This document shows, piece after piece, positions 420 through 59,249 of a stretch of DNA of 64,000 bases. The stretch is from Salvelinus alpinus (taxonomy: Eukaryota > Chordata > Actinopteri > Salmoniformes > Salmonidae). The position numbers and the translations under genes are program-made. The notes under the pieces are model-generated. The model ran no database searches and was not told where the DNA came from. It worked only from the letters and a program-made list of their open reading frames with translations. The first letter of the stretch is position 1. Every line of letters starts with the position of its first letter. The stretch lies in assembly GCF_045679555.1 (NCBI RefSeq), contig NC_092094.1, forward strand, positions 37,917,430-37,981,429. The letters are read 5' to 3'.

Positions 420-980
420 TCAGGAAGAGGCTGTGCCTGCTCTCATGATCTTGAACAGGGCATTGACATTGTTGTTTTTGATAGTGTCTCGGCAGGCTGT
501 GATAACCTGATTCTTTGGCTTACCCACTGAGAGAGACACATAGTAGTAGAGGTTAGGAAAGACCTGAACCCTTCAAAACACATTCAAACCTCTACAATTG
601 CTATCCCCCACTGATCACCCTGTCAACCCCTACTCACCTCTCAGTCTCCCTGCCCTCTGAATGGGCCTGGTTGACAGACTTAAGAACATTGTGATTGTTG
701 GATCCGATCTTGTACTCATTGATCAGGTCTCTGTTCAGGTCATAGAGCTCAATGTAGAGCTTCTTCATGTTCCTCCTGTCATGCAAAAAGATGAAGGGAT
801 GAAAAGAAAAGCCAAGCAGAGAAATCATGGTGGTTGTTATGGCGTCACTAACTTGTCCCCCATGAGTTGTGCGTCCTCTGCCTGCTCCAGCATGTTACGG
901 ATGTGATTAGAATGATCTGCAATGGCCACCATCAGCATTTGGTGGACAGAGTGATAGTCATCTACCTGTTCAAACAATAG

Positions 981-3800
981 GTAACTTTGCGTAACGGTAT
1001 GTAACCCCGTTTCTCTGAAGGAGATGAGGAAGACATCTCACTATGGGACACGCCCTATTTTGTTGGTCATTGGTTGAAACCAATCATGCCTAACAGACAT
1101 ATCAGAGCTTTATGGGTGTACGCCCCATATCAGAGCTTTATATATAACACCATTCACTGCTCTGGTTTCCTCATTCTAAGAACTACCTCTTACACAAATC
1201 GTGCAAGAGGGGCAATCTGGTGAGATCTCCTTCAGAGAACCGGGGTTACATACCGTAACCCAAAGTTTTCTTTCAGTCAACTCGGTTGGACATTTCACTA
1301 TGGGACACTTGCAAAGCTCCCCGATTGCCAATAGTACCTTTCCTGAGAAGCCTGTTGTGGTACATGGTAATGTACCTGATCCATCCTACTCAGCTTCAGT
1401 CCAAGGACTCTGTGCGCCAGGGAGGGCGCAGTAACGTCCACGCAATAGAACCTCACAAAGGTGTGAGAAGAAGCCTAACTAGCCGCACAAATCTCCAAGA
1501 CGGAGATGCCTATATACAGTGCCCATGACGTGGCAATTCCTCAAGTGAAATGTGCGCGGACACCCAGGGGAGACTGCAATCCCAGACAACTGTACACCTT
1601 GGCAATAGCCTCCACTACCCAATGGGTGAGGCATTGTTTGGACAAAGCCCTACCCAGATCAGGGGTGGAAAAGCAAACAAAAAGTTGGTCACAACTTCGG
1701 AATGGCCTAGTGCTGTCCATGTTCAGTAGCTGCGCAGTGCACGCACTTAAGGCGCCGCTGCTCTGGAGAAGAGAACGGCGGAGGGTGGAAGGGAAAAAAG
1801 GTCAGTGGTTTGACTACTATAAGTCATGGGAATGACCTTAGGAATGAACGTGGCGTAAGGATGTTTCATAGCCTTGGAGTAGTCGGGGGGGAAACTGAGT
1901 GCATGAAGGATGAACCGAGAGCACATGAAGGTCGCTAACACACTTGGCCATAGCCAAGGCGAGCAACTGGGCTGTTTTATATGACAGAGTCTTAAGATCC
2001 ACTGTCTCCAGGGATTCAAAGTGATTGCCTGTAAGTTCATCCAGAACCAGTGCCAAATCCCATGATGAGGAAAGTGGCTTGGAGACCGGACAGAGATTGC
2101 GCACTCTGTACCGCCATGTATATGGAGAGGAGGGCAGCAGCGTTCACGGAGCGCCCCACCTGAGATGCAGATCGGTAGATCCTCTCATACATTGACGCGG
2201 TGAAGCGGTCATTGGGATGAGCGAGCTTGGGGGCAGAGGAAGAGGAGCTCAGCCAGGGATGGCTCCACGGGAGGCGGGCTGAGCCATCCCGACGACTCCA
2301 TGTTGTGCATATCCAAGTAGGGGTAGCCAGTCACAGGAGAAGGTGACTTGAGGGGCACACCCAGGAAGACTCCAACAACGCCAGACAGTCTAGGAAGGCT
2401 GGTACACGCTGTCAGACGGATGTAGAATTACTCTGAGAGGAGATTCCATCCATCCTAGTCTTCTTGTAAGGTGTGGGAGGCGTTGAATACTCAACATCAA
2501 ATTTGGTTGCAGTGCATCTGATTGCCTCGAAGAAGGAGAGGTCAGTTATTGACTCATGTCCTACCTCTGCAGTCTGGCTGGGTAGCACAAACTGAGTAGA
2601 GGGGAGAAATTATTCAGGGGCGTAATCCATCTCCTGGTTAGAGAGGCTGATGCGGCAAGAGACATGCTGTCGTCCTCACTTCCGGATTCATCAGAATTAA
2701 GGTCCGCCTCAGACAGAGGCGGTAGCTTCTCCCTCCTCAGGGACTTCATTGTCAACAGAGTCGTCTTCGAGCAAGGACGAGGCCTGGGCAATACTTTCCA
2801 TGTACTTGGCTCTACGTCTTAGGCCACCGGAGCCCATCTGAGCGCAATGCACACAACTAGTGGGGTCGACGAGAGCCTCCATGGCGTGTTCGACGCCTAG
2901 CCAAGTATTACAGAGTGGATGGGAATCTGTCCCGGACATGTAATGCTCGCAATTGTAATGCCCGCAATCTTCACCTGAGTGACGATAGCCAGCTAGCCGA
3001 GCCGTCGCATGAGATACCAAGTGCCGACTCGGTGTGTAAACCAAATAACTCGAGGTAGAACGAACGGCTGGGCTATCATTCACAGGGGAAGGTAAAAGGG
3101 ATGGTGCTTCAATGGTGGGGTAACACACTGAAGAAACAGCACCGCTCGTGCTAGCCAAACAAACCGAATGAGGGTTTAGCCCAAAGGATTCTAGCTAAAA
3201 CACCAGCGGATCCGTTAGCACACTACACAGCCAAGACATTCAAAAGTTTAGCTAGCTAGCTCCGAACGGTGGAATCCGACAGAGAGCTAGAGACCCCAGG
3301 TATAAGTAGCTTAAATTTGTGGGAACCTGCAATTAGCGGGATGCTAAAGCAGTGGAGCAAGCTAGCTAACAAGGCCAGGCAACAGATGTACTGTAGCTAG
3401 CCAACGACAAAAAGTGCTGCTAACAAGCTAACTAAGGTATTTTCACTCTGTAAAGTGAAGCTGAAGATTTCAGAATTCCTGAAAATAGAAAATAAGCCAC
3501 CCAATTCTCCATGGTGGGGTGGTAACCCACCAGGAAAGAAAAGTTAAGTTGAGAGCTAGTTTTCTGAAGAACGTTGCTTAATGAGCTAGTACCCAAATAG
3601 ACTTGTGATGATGCAAAGAAATAGGAAACCAGAGCAGTGCAGGATGTTATATAGACACGAGGGGCATACACCCACAAAGCTCTGAATGGCCTGTTAGGTT
3701 TGATTGAATAAGGCTTCAACCAATGACCCGTAAAAGTGGGTGTGTCCCATAGTGAGACGTCGAACCGAGTCGACTGAAAAATAACATTGAAATGTTAGGC
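981..3800 (-). mobile_element. DIRS-like retrotransposon fossil in BBS2 intron 14
   Basis: A block of about 2.8 kb whose two ends are inverted copies of each other: about 1035-1195 resembles the reverse complement of about 3580-3770, sharing a CACTATGGGACAC core, an ATTGGTTGAA block and an AGAGCTTT block. A further copy of the end motif lies near 1250-1312, as expected for the internal complementary region of DIRS elements. On the minus strand 2709-3158 is a Cys/His-rich stretch (key residues CxHYNC, DSHPLC, LGVEHA, CVHC) like the first coding region of fish DIRS elements. The element is far shorter than whole family members and is broken. The BBS2 orientation and its own sense are the same. 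Old, but younger than the intron it sits in. Confidence 0.6.
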
Positions 3801-5563
3801 CAACTACACAAAAATAAAGCGATATCAAAGGTGTTGTGAGGTTGGTAACGAGAGAAATGCTATTGGTGTGAAGGTTGAGGTGGGTTGTGTGGGAACAGGT
3901 TTGTTCACCTCAGTCATGGTGGTCCGCAGCTTCCCAAAGTACGTGGGAAAGTCTGCCTTTGCCTGTAGGTCTATGTCGTCTGTGATTAGTGTGATCTGAT
4001 TGGAAAACAAAGAACCACTGAAGGGGCCATTTTGAAATACTACAGATCTCCTGTGCACGAAGATGTGTGTTAACACATGTAGACATACCTCTGCCCACGG
4101 CGCAGAAAGTTGAACGTCACAACTGGGGTATCAATGCCCTCCGGTAGGAGGAAGATCTGGTTCAGCCACATGACGACCTAAAGACGAGAATACAGATTTT
4201 CTGTAATAACAGTTAACATTACTGTGAAGCAGAATGCCAGAGGGGCTTGGAAGAGTCTGTAGAGGAGCGTGACAGCACATGGAAGTGTGTGTGTGTAAGT
4301 TAGAGTAAGAGAACGAGAGATACAAAGAATGAATGTGCTTACTCTCTGTGGCCTGGCGAAGGTGACTTTCCCAGTAGGTTGAGATACCTCAGGATCAACA
4401 TTAAGATCATACATGGAGAAGCCAGGCAGCTGACGCATGATCTCAAAGACGTGGAACTGAACGCTGGAGGAAAAGGAAGAGAAAGAATAAGCACATTCAA
4501 ATTACAAAACGATTTATTGTTGTCATTAGACAGAGCTAAAGTACTGCTAAACTTACAAAGTTGGAAAGTAATTGATAGTCAAAATCAATGATTGGTTGTT
4601 TTAAAGTGTGAATTTCACTGGCAAATCACTTCACTAACACATCTATGCAAAGGACTCAGCTGTCTCGTTCATAATTAAAATATGTGTACCTGCTCTTGCC
4701 GCCAACAAAAGCTTTGATGTGTAGATCCACAAGGATATCTTTGGGAGGAATGATGTGAACACGGATACAACCAGACCAATTCTGGGCACTGGGGTGTACC
4801 ACATGACTTTCACCCTTGAAAATTTCCTCAGCGAAAATCAGCACGGCTCTAATGATGGTCTCTGTAGGGGGAAATCCAAGAGGACAGTACTCAGCCCACT
4901 CAGTTACCACAGCAAGCCACATGAGGCTGCACATTCTGGATTATAGGATGGTGAGTGGAGAGAGTGATTGGGTTCAATGTGGGACAGGCTGAAGTTTGGT
5001 CAGCATGGTGAGTTTCTGTGTGGTTTTAGGGCTGTGTAGGTGAGCTGCTTACTGTGTTTTGATGACAGTGCATGAATGTGTTAGTGGTTAGTAGGGAGGG
5101 TATCTGTTTGGGGTGATGGTGTTTACCATTGGGCGTGGAGATGCTGAGCTCTATGTGTGCCCTCTGGGACTCCGTGGCAGCTCTGACAGAGGGCAGTCTA
5201 GAGCTGGGTATTGGCTGATATCACCCCCATCTGGGTATCACCTTCTGAAGTCCCTGGGACAGCCTGCTACCAGAGACACAAGACACACAGTCCTTTACAC
5301 TAAGGTACAAACACTATGCGTGTGTATGTTTGTACATAGAGTGGGAGGATCAATGTTCTCCTCAGAGTACAGTAACTGATAGGTCTGGTAATGTTTGTCT
5401 GAGGTGTGGGTGTTTGATTGCACATGTGGGCTTTATCATTTTCTTCTAATATTAGTTATTTCAGAGAGTTTCAGTGTGTATATATAAATGTAAACGTGTG
5501 TTTGGTTGTAGCTTTATCCTCATAGTTGATTCTGTGAAAGTGTTCGTCAGTGTCTGTTCTTAG

Positions 5564-6857
5564 TAGGGCTGTCCCCGACTAAAATAAATGTTGGTCGAAG
5601 GAGAGTCGTCTGTTCTTTTGACCAATCGATTGGTCGAAATGTTAAAATATATATAGACACACCCTATGTTTGAATAAAATCAACTATATATAGACTACTG
5701 AGCCTGTCTGATGCTTAAAGCACTGCAATTAAAAATGAAGACATAAAATGACTAAAGAGGGAGCCAGAGATCAATATCACCTAACCAGAACAGTTTCATT
5801 TCATTTATAGTAAATCAATATCATTTGGTTAATCAAAATTCTATGAAAATGATACAAATCTAAAAGTAACTTCTATTGCCAATATGTAAAAGTAGCCTAT
5901 ATAAAGCCAACAAATAAAAACATTGCAGGTAGAAAATATCCTGATAAAAATAAATATCCTATGAATCACATTGGCTACGCATGGCCTGTCTACAAGGAAC
6001 TTGACACATTGTGTCAACTATTAACTTGATCCAGCATGAGGCGAGCAAACTTGCAACATTGTATAAAATATTCTGGGCCCTCAGAGTTTCCTGCTCCAGT
6101 GAGCTCCGGACAGACACAGCTGTAGGCTATTTGCGGAATGGATAAGAATTAATCAGATAGGCATATTTAATGACATTTTTTCCCCTTTCATGCTGAGTAG
6201 TTATGGAAAGGGAGAGAGCTGGAAAGATGTTTCTAATAGGCTACGTTGAGGAACGATTGTCCTTCTCAATGGATGTAAAAAACAGACTTAATTTACTTGC
6301 TGTTTGAGGCGAAGAAAAAATGACTTTGAGAAGCTCCACAGTAATGGTGAGTTAAGACTATCATAAATAGTATGAGATCCCCAAATGGGCACATAGGCCT
6401 ACATTTGCACGCAGGCCAGGTATCCTAGGCCTACTTCTATGTGTAATCAGGTGTGTGTCTTTACTCAAGATTGACAGGAGCACTCCAAACAAGACAAATA
6501 ATACATTGACAACTCATAAATGGAATTAAATAAACCCAAACCTTTTTCTCACAAGTGTAGCCTACGTTGGGCGCTCTGCAGACAACATTTCCACTCCTAC
6601 AATGACAACAGAAATGACCGTAATTAAACAAACAATGTAGATGAGAAATTATGGAAATTAATAGTAGGCTAAATGTACTACTGGTACTGGTGTACCATTC
6701 CCGCGGCCTGCAATGGATTAGTCTGCTCAGAAAGGCGTGAATCAGACAGGTGTCTCGTGTGCCATACATTTTTTAAATATGGTTGCCACAGCTCGACAAA
6801 CAAAATCTCGGTCGACCAACAGCCTATCGACCAGTGGACTAAATGGGGTCAGCCCTA
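5564..6857. mobile_element. Non-autonomous hAT-type element in BBS2 intron 9
   Basis: The block begins TAGGGCTGTCCCC and ends with GGGGTCAGCCCTA, an imperfect terminal inverted repeat. It is flanked by an 8-base target duplication, GTTCTTAG at 5556-5563 and GATCTTAG at 6858-6865 (7 of 8 match), which is the hAT signature. Sub-terminal GTCGACCAA/TTGGTCGAA motifs are also inverted. No transposase reading frame is visible in the 1.29 kb. It sits only a few bases inside the intron, beside the splice donor of the exon ending at 6870. Confidence 0.75.
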
Positions 6858-7969
6858 GATCTTAGAAACCTTGGCATTCTCCTTATAGTTGCGTAGTTCC
6901 AGTAGCAGGTTCTGCCTGAGTTGGCTCAACTCTCGGATCAGATCCTGCTCCACACTGGAGTCCATCAGGTTCCCCTTCATCTCCTTACTGGCAGGCAGGT
7001 AGCCACGCACTGACAACCAGCACACAACACATTGGATGTCAAAGACAAATTCTGAGAGAATACACACAAATAAACTAGGCCTATACGAAGTACTAGTAGT
7101 GTTACTCATGTCTTTACCTTCTCCCTCCACAGAGGTACAGATGAGCTGGATCTGTCCATCCATGCGATAGTCCCTCTCCACCACTCCAGCCACAGAGGAC
7201 GAGAAGATGTCTTTGAAGATGACTTCACCTGTTTCGATCGCTCCGTGCATCAATCTGTAAATTAAGGTGAAGTCAAGGGGCCTTACAACATTCCTTACAC
7301 TTGGAGGAAAGGCTGGTGCCAAGTGTCAACCAGTCCTAGGCAATGTGACAAAGTGAAGGATTAGAGGACTTTGAAGACTCTCCTTGATTGGTTCTGTACT
7401 CATTTTAACAAATAGGTCTTCTCAATTGCCCTAAATTGATTGTTGACTGACACATCAAGGTGGTTTACCTTTCCATTGGACCAGCCCTTGATGAGTTCTA
7501 CAACACCGTCAGCATTAAGGTCAAATACATGAACGCTCATTGCATGGTTCTTAGACTGCAGAGGGAAAGTGGGACAGTTATTGGCACATCTTTAAACATA
7601 ATGCTGATTCAAATTCAATACGTTTTGTGTAAAGTGACAGGGATGCATTAAGAAGGAAACTAATATTCCACCCATTCAAAACTTGCAGTACCTTGATTAT
7701 CCAGTAGTGAGCAGTGTGGTCATTGGCCAGTGCACTGCACTGTTCCATTGGCCAGTGCATAAGCAAACCTGCTGCCATGCTTATGACAGAGGGAGGTAAC
7801 CTTCTGAAAGATACAAAGAGAGAACAATCAGCACACATCCTCTCTTTGCTGACATTTTCTGTACTATACACAGCAAGATTTGTTTAAGTTTTAAACATCA
7901 AATAGCTGCAGAAACACAACTCTAGGTATGTAATATGAGCTATACCTCATTTTCACAAGTTCATCTTCT

Positions 7970-8501
7970 TTGATCAAAATCAAATCAAATTTATTGGTCA
8001 CATGTGTTTAGCAGATAGTTATTGCGGGTGTAGAGAAATGCTTGTGCTTCTAGCTCCGACAGTGCAGTAATATCTAACAAGTAATATCTAACATTATTAA
8101 AGGGCTAGTGTTTCATTTCATTAAAGTGGCCTGTGATTCCTAATCTATGTCTATAGGCATCTGCCTCTGATGTGCTAGTAATGGCTGTTTAGCAGTCTGA
8201 TGGCCTTGCGATAGAAGATGTTTTTTAGTCTCTCGGTCCCAGCTTTGATGCACCTGTACTGACCTCGCTTTCTGGATGATAGCGGGGTGAACAGGCAGTG
8301 GCTCGGGTGGTTGATGATCTTTTTGGCCTTCCTATGGCATCGGGTGCTGTAGGTGTCCAGGAGGGCAGGAAGTTTCCCCCCGGGAATGCGTTGGGCATAC
8401 CACACCACCCTCTGGAAAGCTTTGCGGTTGTGGGCGGTGCAGTTGCCGTACCAGGCAGTGATACAGCCCGACAGGATGCAATTGTGCATCTGTATACCCT
8501 A
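7970..8501 (-). mobile_element. 5'-truncated L2/CR1-type LINE inserted in BBS2 exon 5
   Basis: On the minus strand the block opens with the C-terminal part of a non-LTR reverse transcriptase (residue run SGCITAWYGNCTAHNRKAF, then a KIINHPSHCLFTPLSS block). It continues through an untranslated tail and ends in a TTTGATTTGATTTTGAT-type tail near 7970-7985. The same family occurs at 24282-26885. Exon 5 of BBS2 reads SEDFDIRV up to 8502 and resumes with KEDELVKM at 7969, so the LINE landed inside a codon block of the exon. No target-site duplication is obvious. Clade assignment is from memory of fish L2/Rex1-like proteins. Confidence 0.82.
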
Positions 8502-9546
8502 ATGTCAAAGTCCTCTGATCTGACAAGAAGCTGCAAAGACCTGACAAAATAAAATATACACAGTATATTACCCATTTTAGGATCTAGTATATTTATGTAA
8601 TAACAACATTTAAAGTCGTCTAGCTATACATTGCAAAGTACTTGCTTTCATCTTTGGATGAAACTTCTGCTAAATAAAATGTCACCTCATTTTTTCAATT
8701 GCCAGTAAAAACACAGAGAACCAATGACCGGACATTATCCCCCGTGTCCTGAAAAGGAACCCAGACAAACAAACAAACATATAATGTCCTTAATTGTGGT
8801 AAAACTATTCCTATTTCAATGTTAGACAACAGTTCACATGATGAAGAGGAACACAATCCATACCGTCCAGAACTGGTCGTTCCCCTCACAGTCAAATCCT
8901 TGTAAGGCACAGTTTCCTCCGATGATGGTGAGGGGGGACTCAATATTCGCCAATTTCCCTAAAGCGATGGCATTGTCCCCATCTGTCACCTAGAGGAAAG
9001 GAAATAGCATCATTATTTGCAAAACGTTATTATTATGTAATACTACTACAACAGAAGCATGATTATGTTGTATCATTGCTTCCTGTCCAGTCCTTGGCTC
9101 ACCTCTCTGTTGAAGATGTCAGCAATTTCGTGTACATCATAGGCCAGGTTTGTCTGGGTGCCCACGAGGAGCGTGTCTCCAGTGGTGTTGGGTCCTCGAG
9201 TACCAGCTGTCAAGCAGCTCAATGCCTGGTTGATGTTGAGCAAAGAGATGTCTGAGTCCTGGGCACTCTGGCTTAGACGGTAGGCTGCCTGCCACTGGCC
9301 ACACATGTGAGGGTTATGGATGAACACCTAATAGAAGAGAGAAGATTGAATTACTTGAGCTGGAGTGCTATATTACGATGCATCAAGCTTCATGCATACA
9401 TGTAAATGGCAACTACCAAAGGGAACTGGGCGAGGCCATACCTTCCCTGATTGTGTGACTGCAGTGAGGCATGGGTGGATCCCTTTAAACTTGCCCATTG
9501 TAACCATGCAAGGGTTTATTTTATGGTTCATCTTGAGGGTGAGTGC

Positions 9547-10936
9547 CTACACACAATACCCCATAACGAAAAGTGAAAACAGGTTTTTAGATTTTTTTTC
9601 AAATGTATTAAAAATAAAAAAACTGAAATACCTAATTTAGATAAGTATTCAGACTCTTTGCTTTGAGACTCGAAATTGAGCTCAGGTGCATCCTGTTTCC
9701 ATTGATATTCCTTGAGATGTTTCCACAACTTGATTGGAGTCCACCTGTTGTAAATTCAATTGATATGACATGATTTGGAAAGGCACACACCTGTCTATAT
9801 AAGGTCTCACAGTTGACAGTGCATGTCAGAACAAATACCACCCCATGAGGGTGAAGGAATTGTCAGTAGAGCTCAGAGACAAGATTGTGTCGAGGCACAG
9901 ATCTGGAGAAGGGTACCAAAAATCATTCTTAAATGGAAAAAGTTTGGAACCACCAAGACTCTTCCTAGAGCTGACCGCCCGGCCAAACTGAGCAATCGTG
10001 GGAGAAGTGCCTTGGTCAGGGAGGTGACCAAGAACCTGATGGTCACTCTGACAGAGCTCCAGAGTTCCTCTGTGGAGATGGCAGACACTTCCAGAAAGAC
10101 AACCCTCTCTGCAGAACTCCACCAATCAGACCTTTGTGCTAGAGTGGCCAGATGGAAGCCACTCTTCAGTAAAAAAGCACATGACAGCCCGCTTGGAGTT
10201 TGCCAAAAGGCACCTAAAGACTCTCAGACCATGAGAAACAAGATTATCTTGTCTGATGAAACCAAGATTGAACTCTTTGGCATGATTGCCAAGCGTCGTG
10301 TCTGGAGGAAACCTGGCACCATCCCTATGGTGAAGCATGGTGGTGGTAGCATCACGCCGTGGGGATGTTTTCAGCGGCAGGAACTGGGAGACCAGTCAGG
10401 ATTGAGGCAAAGATGAACAGAGCAGAGTACAGAGAGATCCTTGATGAAAACCTGCTCCAGAGTGCACAATGATTCAGGACAAGTCTCTGAATGTCCTTGA
10501 GTGGCCCTGCCAGAACCCGGACTTGAACCCGATCAGACATCTCTGGAGAGACCTAAAAATAGCTGTGCAGCAACACTCTCCATCCAACCTGACAGAGCTT
10601 GAGAGGATCTGCAGAGAAGAATGGGAGAAACTCCCCAAATAGAGGTGTGCCCAGCTTGTAGCGTCATACCCAAGAAGACTCAAGGCTGCAATCGCTGCCA
10701 AAGGTGCTTCAACAATGTACTGAGTAAAGGGTCTGAATACTAATGTAAATGTGATATTTCCATTTTTAAATTTGTATAAATTAGCAAAACTTTCTAAACC
10801 TGTTTTTGCTTTGTCATTATGAGGTATTGTGTGTAGATTGAGGATGAAAAAAATATTGAATCCATTTTAGAATAAGGCTGTAACCTAATAAAATTTGGAA
10901 AAAGTCAAGGGGTCTGAATTATTTGCGAAGGCACTG
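9547..10936 (+). mobile_element. Tc1/mariner element, left end truncated, abutting BBS2 exon 1
   Basis: The right end is a normal Tc1 terminus, CAGTGCCTTCGC read inward, followed by the target TA at 10937-10938. The left side starts inside the terminal inverted repeat at CTACACACAATACC, so roughly the outer 100 bases are missing. The transposase region (9823-10650) keeps [11 protein letters not shown] and KHGGGS motifs and a PDLNP block, but an early section is missing and later parts fall in different frames, so it cannot make a complete enzyme. It directly replaces the start-codon region of BBS2. Confidence 0.85.
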
Positions 10937-11094
10937 TAGGCACCAAAGTGGTGGCACAATACTAAAACAAAAATAACCAATCACAGTACATATTGTGAGT
11001 TTGTTCTACTGGATGCTTGTTCTGAGGTGAGTAAGAAATCTAATCATCACTGCTGGAGATGCATGCATGTTGCATCCACTTGCAAACTACCCTC

Positions 11095-13048: not shown

Positions 13049-13816
13049 ATGGATCCTTGTGAATGCTCTAAAAGTAAGTTTTCATGTATATTGATTAATA
13101 TAATCATAATGTAGGCCTATTTATTCGAAAACCAATTACCTGTCATTTTGATTATCTATTAACGCAACTGTCTATTTGTAGCTGGCTCTTGCAACTGCGG
13201 TGGATCCTGCAAGTGTTCCAACTGCGCATGCACCAGTTGTAAGAAAAGTAAGTTTTTTGGTTTTGTTACGTTGTAAATACCACTCGTCAAATAAACTCGT
13301 CATGTTCTGAGCGCCGACTTCTCTCTCATGCTGGCTTCACCTAAGGAAATGACTTGATAACTGCAATTTCGGCAGAAATTCAACTGCACAACTTATAAAA
13401 AGAAATGTAATTTTTTAATACTATCATTTGTTTACCAGCATGATGGCTGTACTTGATGGTTGACACTGTTGGCCATTAGAACATGTGTTTCTCAATGAGT
13501 TCAAAGCATGGTTGGTCAATACCATCTTCCCACTTAGTTATGAACACCTGGTAGCCTAATTAGGCTCTTCAAGAGGACTCTGAACAAGGAAGGCTTTGAT
13601 TAAGTTGACCACACCTGGGGAGACAAGTTGACAACTCATCTTAGAGCCTTATTAATGGGTTTGTCTGTCATTGGTCAATAGTCTGTCATTGGTCATCAAT
13701 AATCGATTGTTTTTGTCCCATCAGGTTGCTGCCCCTGCTGTCCTTCCGACTGCAGTAAATGTGCTTCAGGCTGTGTGTGCAAGGGCAAGACCTGCGATAC
13801 CAGCTGCTGTCAGTGA
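13049..13816 (+). CDS. mt: Metallothionein (60 residues, three exons)
   Basis: A cytosolic cysteine-rich protein that binds zinc, copper and cadmium and buffers metals and oxidants. Exons 13049-13073, 13182-13247 and 13725-13816 join in frame to 61 codons including TGA. The product starts MDPCECSK and ends KTCDTSCCQ. It has 20 cysteines: 9 in the N-terminal beta domain (exons 1-2) and 11 in the alpha domain (exon 3), in the CxC, CC and CxCC patterns typical of fish metallothionein. All splice sites are GT/AG, and the exon borders fall after SK and KK as in other vertebrates. The protein matches what I recall of salmonid MT; I cannot say whether it is the A or the B paralogue. Regulation by MTF-1 is expected from the MREs upstream. 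Nothing in the gene looks broken. Confidence 0.97.
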
Positions 13817-14650: not shown

Positions 14651-49124
<34,474 letters not shown>

Positions 49125-49625: not shown

Positions 49626-51690
49626 AATTGCCAGGATCTCCAACTATTCCTCAGACATGGCCTGCCTATAGTCATAGAAGCAACAGGAAATTGGGAATCA
49701 TATTGAACTAACCATAATCCAGTGGTCCAGGAAGAACTAAATCTTGCAAGCAGTTTTGTCTTCACCAGAAGATGTGTGTTCTACATTGAATCCACCTCCA
49801 CAGTCGATAAAAATGTCATTTGGAAAAACCAATGATTTTATCAAGGTATCATGTCAAACTGAAACCGGCAGCTAATACGATTTTGTGGGTGCTAGAACGA
49901 CAATTCAGCATCCACTGTGTACTCTGTAAATTGGTCAAACTGCACACCCACACATACAAAATTGTATCCCTGCTGGTGGTTATCTATAAGGAATTACATG
50001 ATGATATACCAATCTTTGCTACTAGTTATACCTGATTGATTTGCTTAGAAAGGTCTGTTTCTTTGGATAACATCTCCCCTTTCTATGACTACACTATCAG
50101 CAGCTGGAGAAATACTACTCTGAGTAGGTGAGAGGAACTGTATTGAACGTACATTGTGATGGGCCCTATCATGTATGACACTGCTACACTTATTGGCAGA
50201 TGGTTAGAAAGCAAGGAAATGCCCTGAGAGAACACAGATGGGAGTCTGCTTGGCTGCGCTAGATTGTCGAGAAGCCTTTCCTCTCAAACTGATTCTATTG
50301 TCACCACAGGGGACTTGTCTTCATTATGGAGAGAACCAAATTGACTGTGCAGGCTCTTTTAATGCAGTTTTTTAACTTCACTCACAGCCCTTATCATCAT
50401 GAGTTCTGGAGACAATGCCCTTGCTACGCACCACATCTGCTCTGGTGAAGATCAGTCTGGAGCTCTCTGTGGAAAAGACATGGACTTCTGCCAAGGTTGA
50501 TCCACTCTCAGGTGTGTGTGCTGCAGCTGGTGTTGTGAATCAGGCCGATGCCACACACCTGCTATAACCCGGCTATTTCACAACACCAGGGTGGCACTGC
50601 ACCACTGCCAACGAGACGCCAATGGGCAAGCAACAGAAGCAGCTTTGAGGAGCGGAAGAGTTCCTACGGTTCACCTGATGAAATGTCTGCTGTGATTTTA
50701 AATTCACTGTCGTGTAAAAGCATTTGATTAAACTTGTTTTATGATATTGTGAGTTTTTACTTTATTTAATAATGGAGGACAATTATGCCCCAAGGAGGCA
50801 AATACACTAATTTATTTGTATTCCAGGAGGAAATGCTTTGTTAAAAAGTTATATTTTCAGGATATACTGTAAGTAATAAAACAAAGTTACATTTTGGCCC
50901 AAATGCAGTCAGGGGGATCAACAGTTTTGAATAGTAAGGCTTCTATACCAAGAATTGTCTGCAGGGTCAGCGGTTTAATGGAAACTCAATGAAAGGGAAC
51001 ATATACTGCTGCTGGCACAACATGGTTGCTCAGCTGAGACTGTAACAGTCATTTACCATGGTGTTTTACACAACATGACCAACTGATACCAAGGTCATCC
51101 TTTAACTGAGGCAGTGAAGTGGTAAACACACACCAAAACATTCCAAGCATGACTGTTTAGGGGATGACTTTTACATAGCAAGAATGAGGTCACCTGAAAG
51201 TTATTCCGTAGTGGCAAGTTTATCAAGATATAAATATTCAATTATTTTATAAGGATCCCCTTTGTCTATTGTTTGGTTTAATACTGAATGGCTGGGCTCA
51301 GGAGAAGTCAGGGATCATTTAAATGGAGATTTTGAAGGTGATGGAGCTGTCTCCCAAACTTGTTGCCTTTCCATGTCTTCAATATAAATATTTTCAATTT
51401 CTCCCATCCTTGGGAGGCCCCTTTACATCAATATGGAATAAGAGGAAGGTAACAGTTCCTCCTCAGAAGCAATACCTTATGGAGAAGGGTTTACCTCTTC
51501 TATCTTTGTGACTTTCTGCCAAGGTTATCTTGCCTTAGATCACAAGTTAATCTATGTAATAAGGAGGTTCACAAGCCCTCAGGGGGTTAGTTATAAATAC
51601 AAATTGCTCTCATGGAGTTCCAAATAGGTTTAGTGAACTGAACATTGACTTATCTCAACATGGCCAAAGGCACTTCCTGCCTTTTTCAAG
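49626..51690. other. Intergenic, NUP93-SLC12A3
   Basis: Two kilobases with no exon, RNA gene or repeat that I recognise. An AATAAA-like signal near 50873 has no gene attached. The right part is the SLC12A3 upstream region. Confidence 0.35.
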
Positions 51691-51693
51691 ACA

Positions 51694-51699
51694 TATAAA
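51694..51699 (+). promoter_or_regulatory. Likely TATA box of SLC12A3
   Basis: TATAAA 58 bases upstream of the SLC12A3 ATG. This would give a very short 5' untranslated leader of about 30 bases. Confidence 0.5.
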
Positions 51700-51756
51700 G
51701 CCCCTCATGCCACCATTTGTTTCCTATTACATGAAAACTTTGGTCTTCCACTCCAA

Positions 51757-59249
<7,493 letters not shown>

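Follow-up and report, generated by a model that had tools for sequence, protein, structure and literature searches.

The gene bbs2 is a cilium gene whose product is a subunit of the BBSome. Lien et al. 2016 (PMC8127823) found that 55% of the Ss4R duplicates of Atlantic salmon remain as two functional copies; they also report for this species that, for 56% of 9,162 singletons, a pseudogenised fragment occupies the expected place, and that interactions between partners weigh very weakly on duplicate retention. The locus described here resembles these singletons in that a broken fragment likewise occupies the expected collinear position while its partner is intact, and differs from them in that the lesions of a single gene are listed one by one. 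It is one more case of a common duplicate fate, reported for thousands of Atlantic salmon genes and ordinary in kind, and it illustrates cleanly how one member of a pair is lost once a genome has doubled. A literature search on bbs2 with salmonids, ohnologs, trout and salmon returned no mention of the pseudogene, which may still be in print; the only occurrence of bbs2 in PMC5731093 is in the title of a cited reference.

The window analyzed is a 64,000-nt stretch of the Salvelinus alpinus genome (C9:37917430-37981429), and the other bbs2 copy of the same genome is carried by the contig termed C15. A BBS2 protein search of the whole genome gave 28 matches at E <= 0.001, of which 17 lie on C15 and 11 in the window; among its 26 best-scored candidates there was no third bbs2 locus, though a very decayed copy could escape such a search. 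That the window match to BBS2 is not due to chance follows from these 11 matches and from the ORF of exon 2, which scores 77.4 bits against Pfam BBS2_N. The initial annotation had proposed to look for a second bbs2 elsewhere in the genome, and one was found at C15:29038021-29042807, where 17 exons with AG/GT borders form one open frame of 716 amino acids. Since these exon borders were picked to suit the splice signals and the frame, the independent check is an end-to-end alignment with bovine BBS2 containing only short gaps (6vbu chain 2; residues 1-716 aligned to 1-721, 1173.8 bits, 525 of 715 aligned sites identical), obtained in a search of solved structures whose sole further match at E <= 0.001 was BBS7 with 25.8 bits. 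The window copy, in contrast, is unable to encode such a protein. In the genome search, internal stops were indicated for three of the 17 matches on C15, which we read as alignments overrunning exon borders into introns, and the BBS2_Mid family gave a match on C15 only and not in the window copy.

Each exon of the intact C15 copy, in place of a reference transcript, was aligned to the window. By this alignment all 17 exons of a BBS2-like gene are recognizable on the minus strand between positions 420 and 10949, in the order previously given. The gene had been placed at 420..9546; it is indeed there, but its locus runs past 9546 because a Tc1-like DNA transposon splits exon 1 and leaves the initial 13 coding nt of the ancestral gene beyond it. 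Exon 1 is thus composed of a 5' end at 10937-10949, where the ancestral start codon ATG reads ACT, the transposon at 9543-10936 (plus strand) and a 3' part at 9442-9542. Exon 2 (9103-9327) has lost 3 nt, exon 3 lies at 8864-8989 and exon 4 (8686-8748) contains a TGA stop at codon 175. Exon 5 is divided into a 5' part at 8491-8530, a LINE-like fragment at 7974-8490 and a 3' part at 7946-7973 with a 13-nt deletion, the latter read by eye from the sequence. These are followed by exon 6 (7692-7803, 7-nt insertion), exon 7 (7469-7555), exon 8 (7118-7254, 1-nt insertion), exon 9 (6870-7009), an insert in intron 9 (5564-6859) and exon 10 (5127-5263), which carries both a TAG stop at codon 382 and a 2-nt deletion. 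Exon 11 (4690-4861), exon 12 (4343-4463, 9-nt deletion), exon 13 (4089-4177, net 34 nt shorter with its donor GT kept) and exon 14 (3909-3995, 51-nt or 17-codon deletion) precede an insert in intron 14 (981-3839), and the gene is completed by exon 15 (853-965), exon 16 (638-775, 12-nt deletion and 1-nt insertion) and exon 17 (420-526), which ends in TGA.

The insert in exon 1 is 1394 nt long, is placed after a TA and contains an ORF (9817-10413) with a Tc3/Tc1-type transposase domain (HTH_Tnp_Tc3_2). The 517-nt insert in exon 5 matches dispersed repeat copies and has itself no Pfam family match; a related copy of this repeat extends into a reading frame with an RVT_1 domain at 24365-25042, and the name LINE given to the fragment by the initial annotation is fair when inferred from this related copy. 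Both intron inserts appear as gaps between blastn segments, without a counterpart at the corresponding place in C15 by blastn, and the one in intron 14 bears arms at 1032-1081 and 3712-3761 that form an inverted repeat with 84% complementarity. Elsewhere in the window, a repeat at 43648-45257 holds a stop-free stretch of 361 amino acids (43867-44952, minus strand) that is Tc1-type transposase-like by eye; it is 98% identical to a C15 copy and hence probably young.

Altogether the window bbs2 carries 11 disabling lesions and four in-frame deletions. The frameshifts are those of exons 5, 6, 8, 10, 13 and 16 (-13, +7, +1, -2, net -34 and +1, respectively), and the in-frame deletions those of exons 2, 12, 14 and 16. 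The two stops, the missing start, the frameshifts in exons 6, 8, 10 and 16, the 17-codon gap in exon 14 and the insert in exon 5 had all been noticed in the initial annotation and were recovered by alignment to the C15 copy; the Tc1-like insert in exon 1, the deletions that shift the frame in exons 5 and 13 and the in-frame deletions in exons 2, 12 and 16 are additional. It is scarcely conceivable that the animal has an intact gene here and that the lesions are errors of assembly or sequencing: the insertions lie at defined places, neither of the fetched blocks (C9 and C15) contains an N, and the differences from the C15 copy extend through exons (164 of 2009 exonic sites) as well as introns (504 of 3266 noncoding sites). 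With two mobile-element pieces in exons, two intron inserts and a divergence of 8% in exonic and 15% in noncoding sequence, the earlier exclusion of sequencing error as the sole cause holds.

The collinearity of C9 with C15 extends over about 110 kb, beginning 47 kb ahead of the window and reaching about 63 kb into it. The alignment forms one inverted chain of 83 segments, taken from 173 inverted low-copy matches among 403 matches. Exons on the C9 side were named by Pfam as PHAF1, Galactosyl_T, metallothionein, Nup93 and SLC12 (10 proteins, two of them SLC12 or permease and three without a family), and those of PHAF1, Galactosyl_T, metallothionein and Nup93 have conserved counterparts in the C15 block. 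The filter applied to conserved ORFs (a minimum of 25 codons and a pN no higher than 0.35 of pS) was also passed by bbs2 fragments (9076-9327 and 8837-8989) and by repeats, and therefore marks common conserved exons, not intact neighbours. A second nup93/slc12a3/herpud1 block had been anticipated beside the second bbs2, and its collinearity and the Nup93 counterparts agree with this; several slc12a3 ORFs of the window lack a match in the C15 block. Both the collinearity, which takes in other genes over this length, and the introns present in the window copy argue against a tandem, small segmental or processed copy in place of a homeolog from whole-genome duplication, an origin that we regard as extremely improbable. 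Combining an intact paralog in a collinear block, several independent lesions and retained introns, the window bbs2 is, as judged from these alignments, almost certainly a nonfunctionalised duplicate, that is, an ohnolog pseudogene.

Over 652 codons (gapped codons and the two stop codons were left out), the two bbs2 copies differ by a dS of 0.179 and a dN of 0.059, a ratio of 0.33. The dS is close to the K80 distance of 0.173 at noncoding sites, so that synonymous sites behave as neutral. When amino-acid changes at 654 sites were polarised with the bovine protein, 57 were found only on the window copy (the exon-4 stop being one of them) and 5 only on the C15 copy, with all three sequences differing at 21 sites; the 57 to 5 imbalance (chi-square 43.6, binomial p 3e-12) indicates relaxed constraint on the broken copy. 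The initial annotation had suggested comparing the dN/dS of the two copies, and splitting dN by the share of polarised changes (bovine outgroup) gave about 0.05 on the C15 branch versus 0.60 on the window branch. Replacements in the window copy affect 57 of 487 sites where C15 and bovine agree versus 26 of 167 elsewhere (Fisher p 0.22). Among exons, pN/pS is lowest in exon 9 (0.15) and exon 3 (0.18) and highest in exon 1 (1.78), uneven values that rest on small counts. From the two branch ratios, roughly 58% (bootstrap 41-83%) of the window branch looks to have been without constraint.

The initial annotation had taken the gene to be one of two copies left by the salmonid whole-genome duplication. 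Two copies in collinear blocks, one of them dead, do exist; their assignment to the salmonid event is an extrapolation, with which the dS of 0.18, based on two copies of one genome and the bovine sequence, is compatible. PMC8127823 gives this duplication an age of 80 million years, and if the copies diverged at that point and rates were constant, the loss of bbs2 would fall near 47 million years ago (33-66). The salmonid-specific duplication would have produced two redundant bbs2 copies, of which the window copy would have remained constrained until roughly 40% of its branch had elapsed. A disabling mutation would then have become fixed in it and given way to neutral decay, the C15 copy continuing to supply the BBSome subunit. 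Such a death well after the duplication predicts lesions common to related genera. As earlier proposed, we infer that the other copy carries the function; the C15 bbs2 would then be the only working copy, on which targeting or screening for ciliopathies in this fish should focus, and the dead copy may be hit erroneously by reads or primers.

The GT/AG borders of the window copy had been described as mostly intact, which was correct but understated. Scored by script, 16 of 16 acceptors are AG and 14 of 16 donors are GT; the two remaining donors (exons 5 and 13) fell outside that alignment and are GT by eye, which brings the intact dinucleotides to 32 of 32. No splice dinucleotide has thus changed, compared with an expectation of 3.3 changes over the neutral time estimated above; the probability of seeing none is 0.035, or 0.09 with the lower bound of that time and 0.003 with a branch that was neutral throughout. 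A tract of 112 nt at 6930-7041, comprising the 5' part of exon 9 and adjoining intron, is moreover identical in the dead and open copies; only two identical runs among the 71,047 aligned columns between C9 and C15 are longer. Of these two, one lies in a simple-repeat ORF stretch and the other in the conserved ORF 38020-38181, which adjoins a Nic96-matching exon that we take as nup93. The number of identical 112-nt runs to be expected is about 0.0002 when calculated with the identity of bbs2 overall and 0.011 with that of its exons. Gene conversion, a constrained element or chance could account for the tract, which is too small for a firm claim.

These two features are what one could cite for a dead bbs2 that is still spliced into an RNA, noncoding or truncated, that has a function such as regulating the intact bbs2 transcript. 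We consider this very unlikely, given that early constraint on the branch accounts for part of the splice-site retention, that gene conversion or chance could equally have produced the tract, and that conserved residues were replaced nearly as often as others, so that little protein constraint is visible. There is likewise only a slight chance that the splice signals and the exon 9 tract were kept by selection for a gene acting as RNA, as opposed to chance or gene conversion. For an ohnolog pseudogene, the intact splice set and the tract are mild oddities, and neither restores a frame.

With the idea that the whole BBSome has returned to single copy in mind, we counted BBS1 and BBS9 in the genome by protein search. 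BBS1 gave three matches, all on C24, whereas the 12 matches of BBS9 fell on two contigs, at C4:44638953-44662053 and C35:11408725-11444528. Within the BBS9 exon that covers profile positions 228-290, one TGA was flagged in the match on C4, and the C4 and C35 sequences differ by a 6-nt gap.

Some observations concern the neighbours of bbs2. In slc12a3 (51649-58526), window ORFs including 51649-52128 and 55710-56009, the latter with SLC12A3 chains as its best matches, match SLC12A3 and have no match in C15:28950001-28984000, and further slc12a3 ORF matches in that interval contain stops. The gene may show the reverse fate to bbs2, a reciprocal loss that is a lead only. Metallothionein exons at 13163-13813 (PF00131 for 13703-13813) adjoin bbs2 on the opposite strand and have conserved C15 counterparts. 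Finally, a mir-138 precursor was detected at 50519-50596 with 94.2 bits, within sequence that is likewise part of the C15 alignment.
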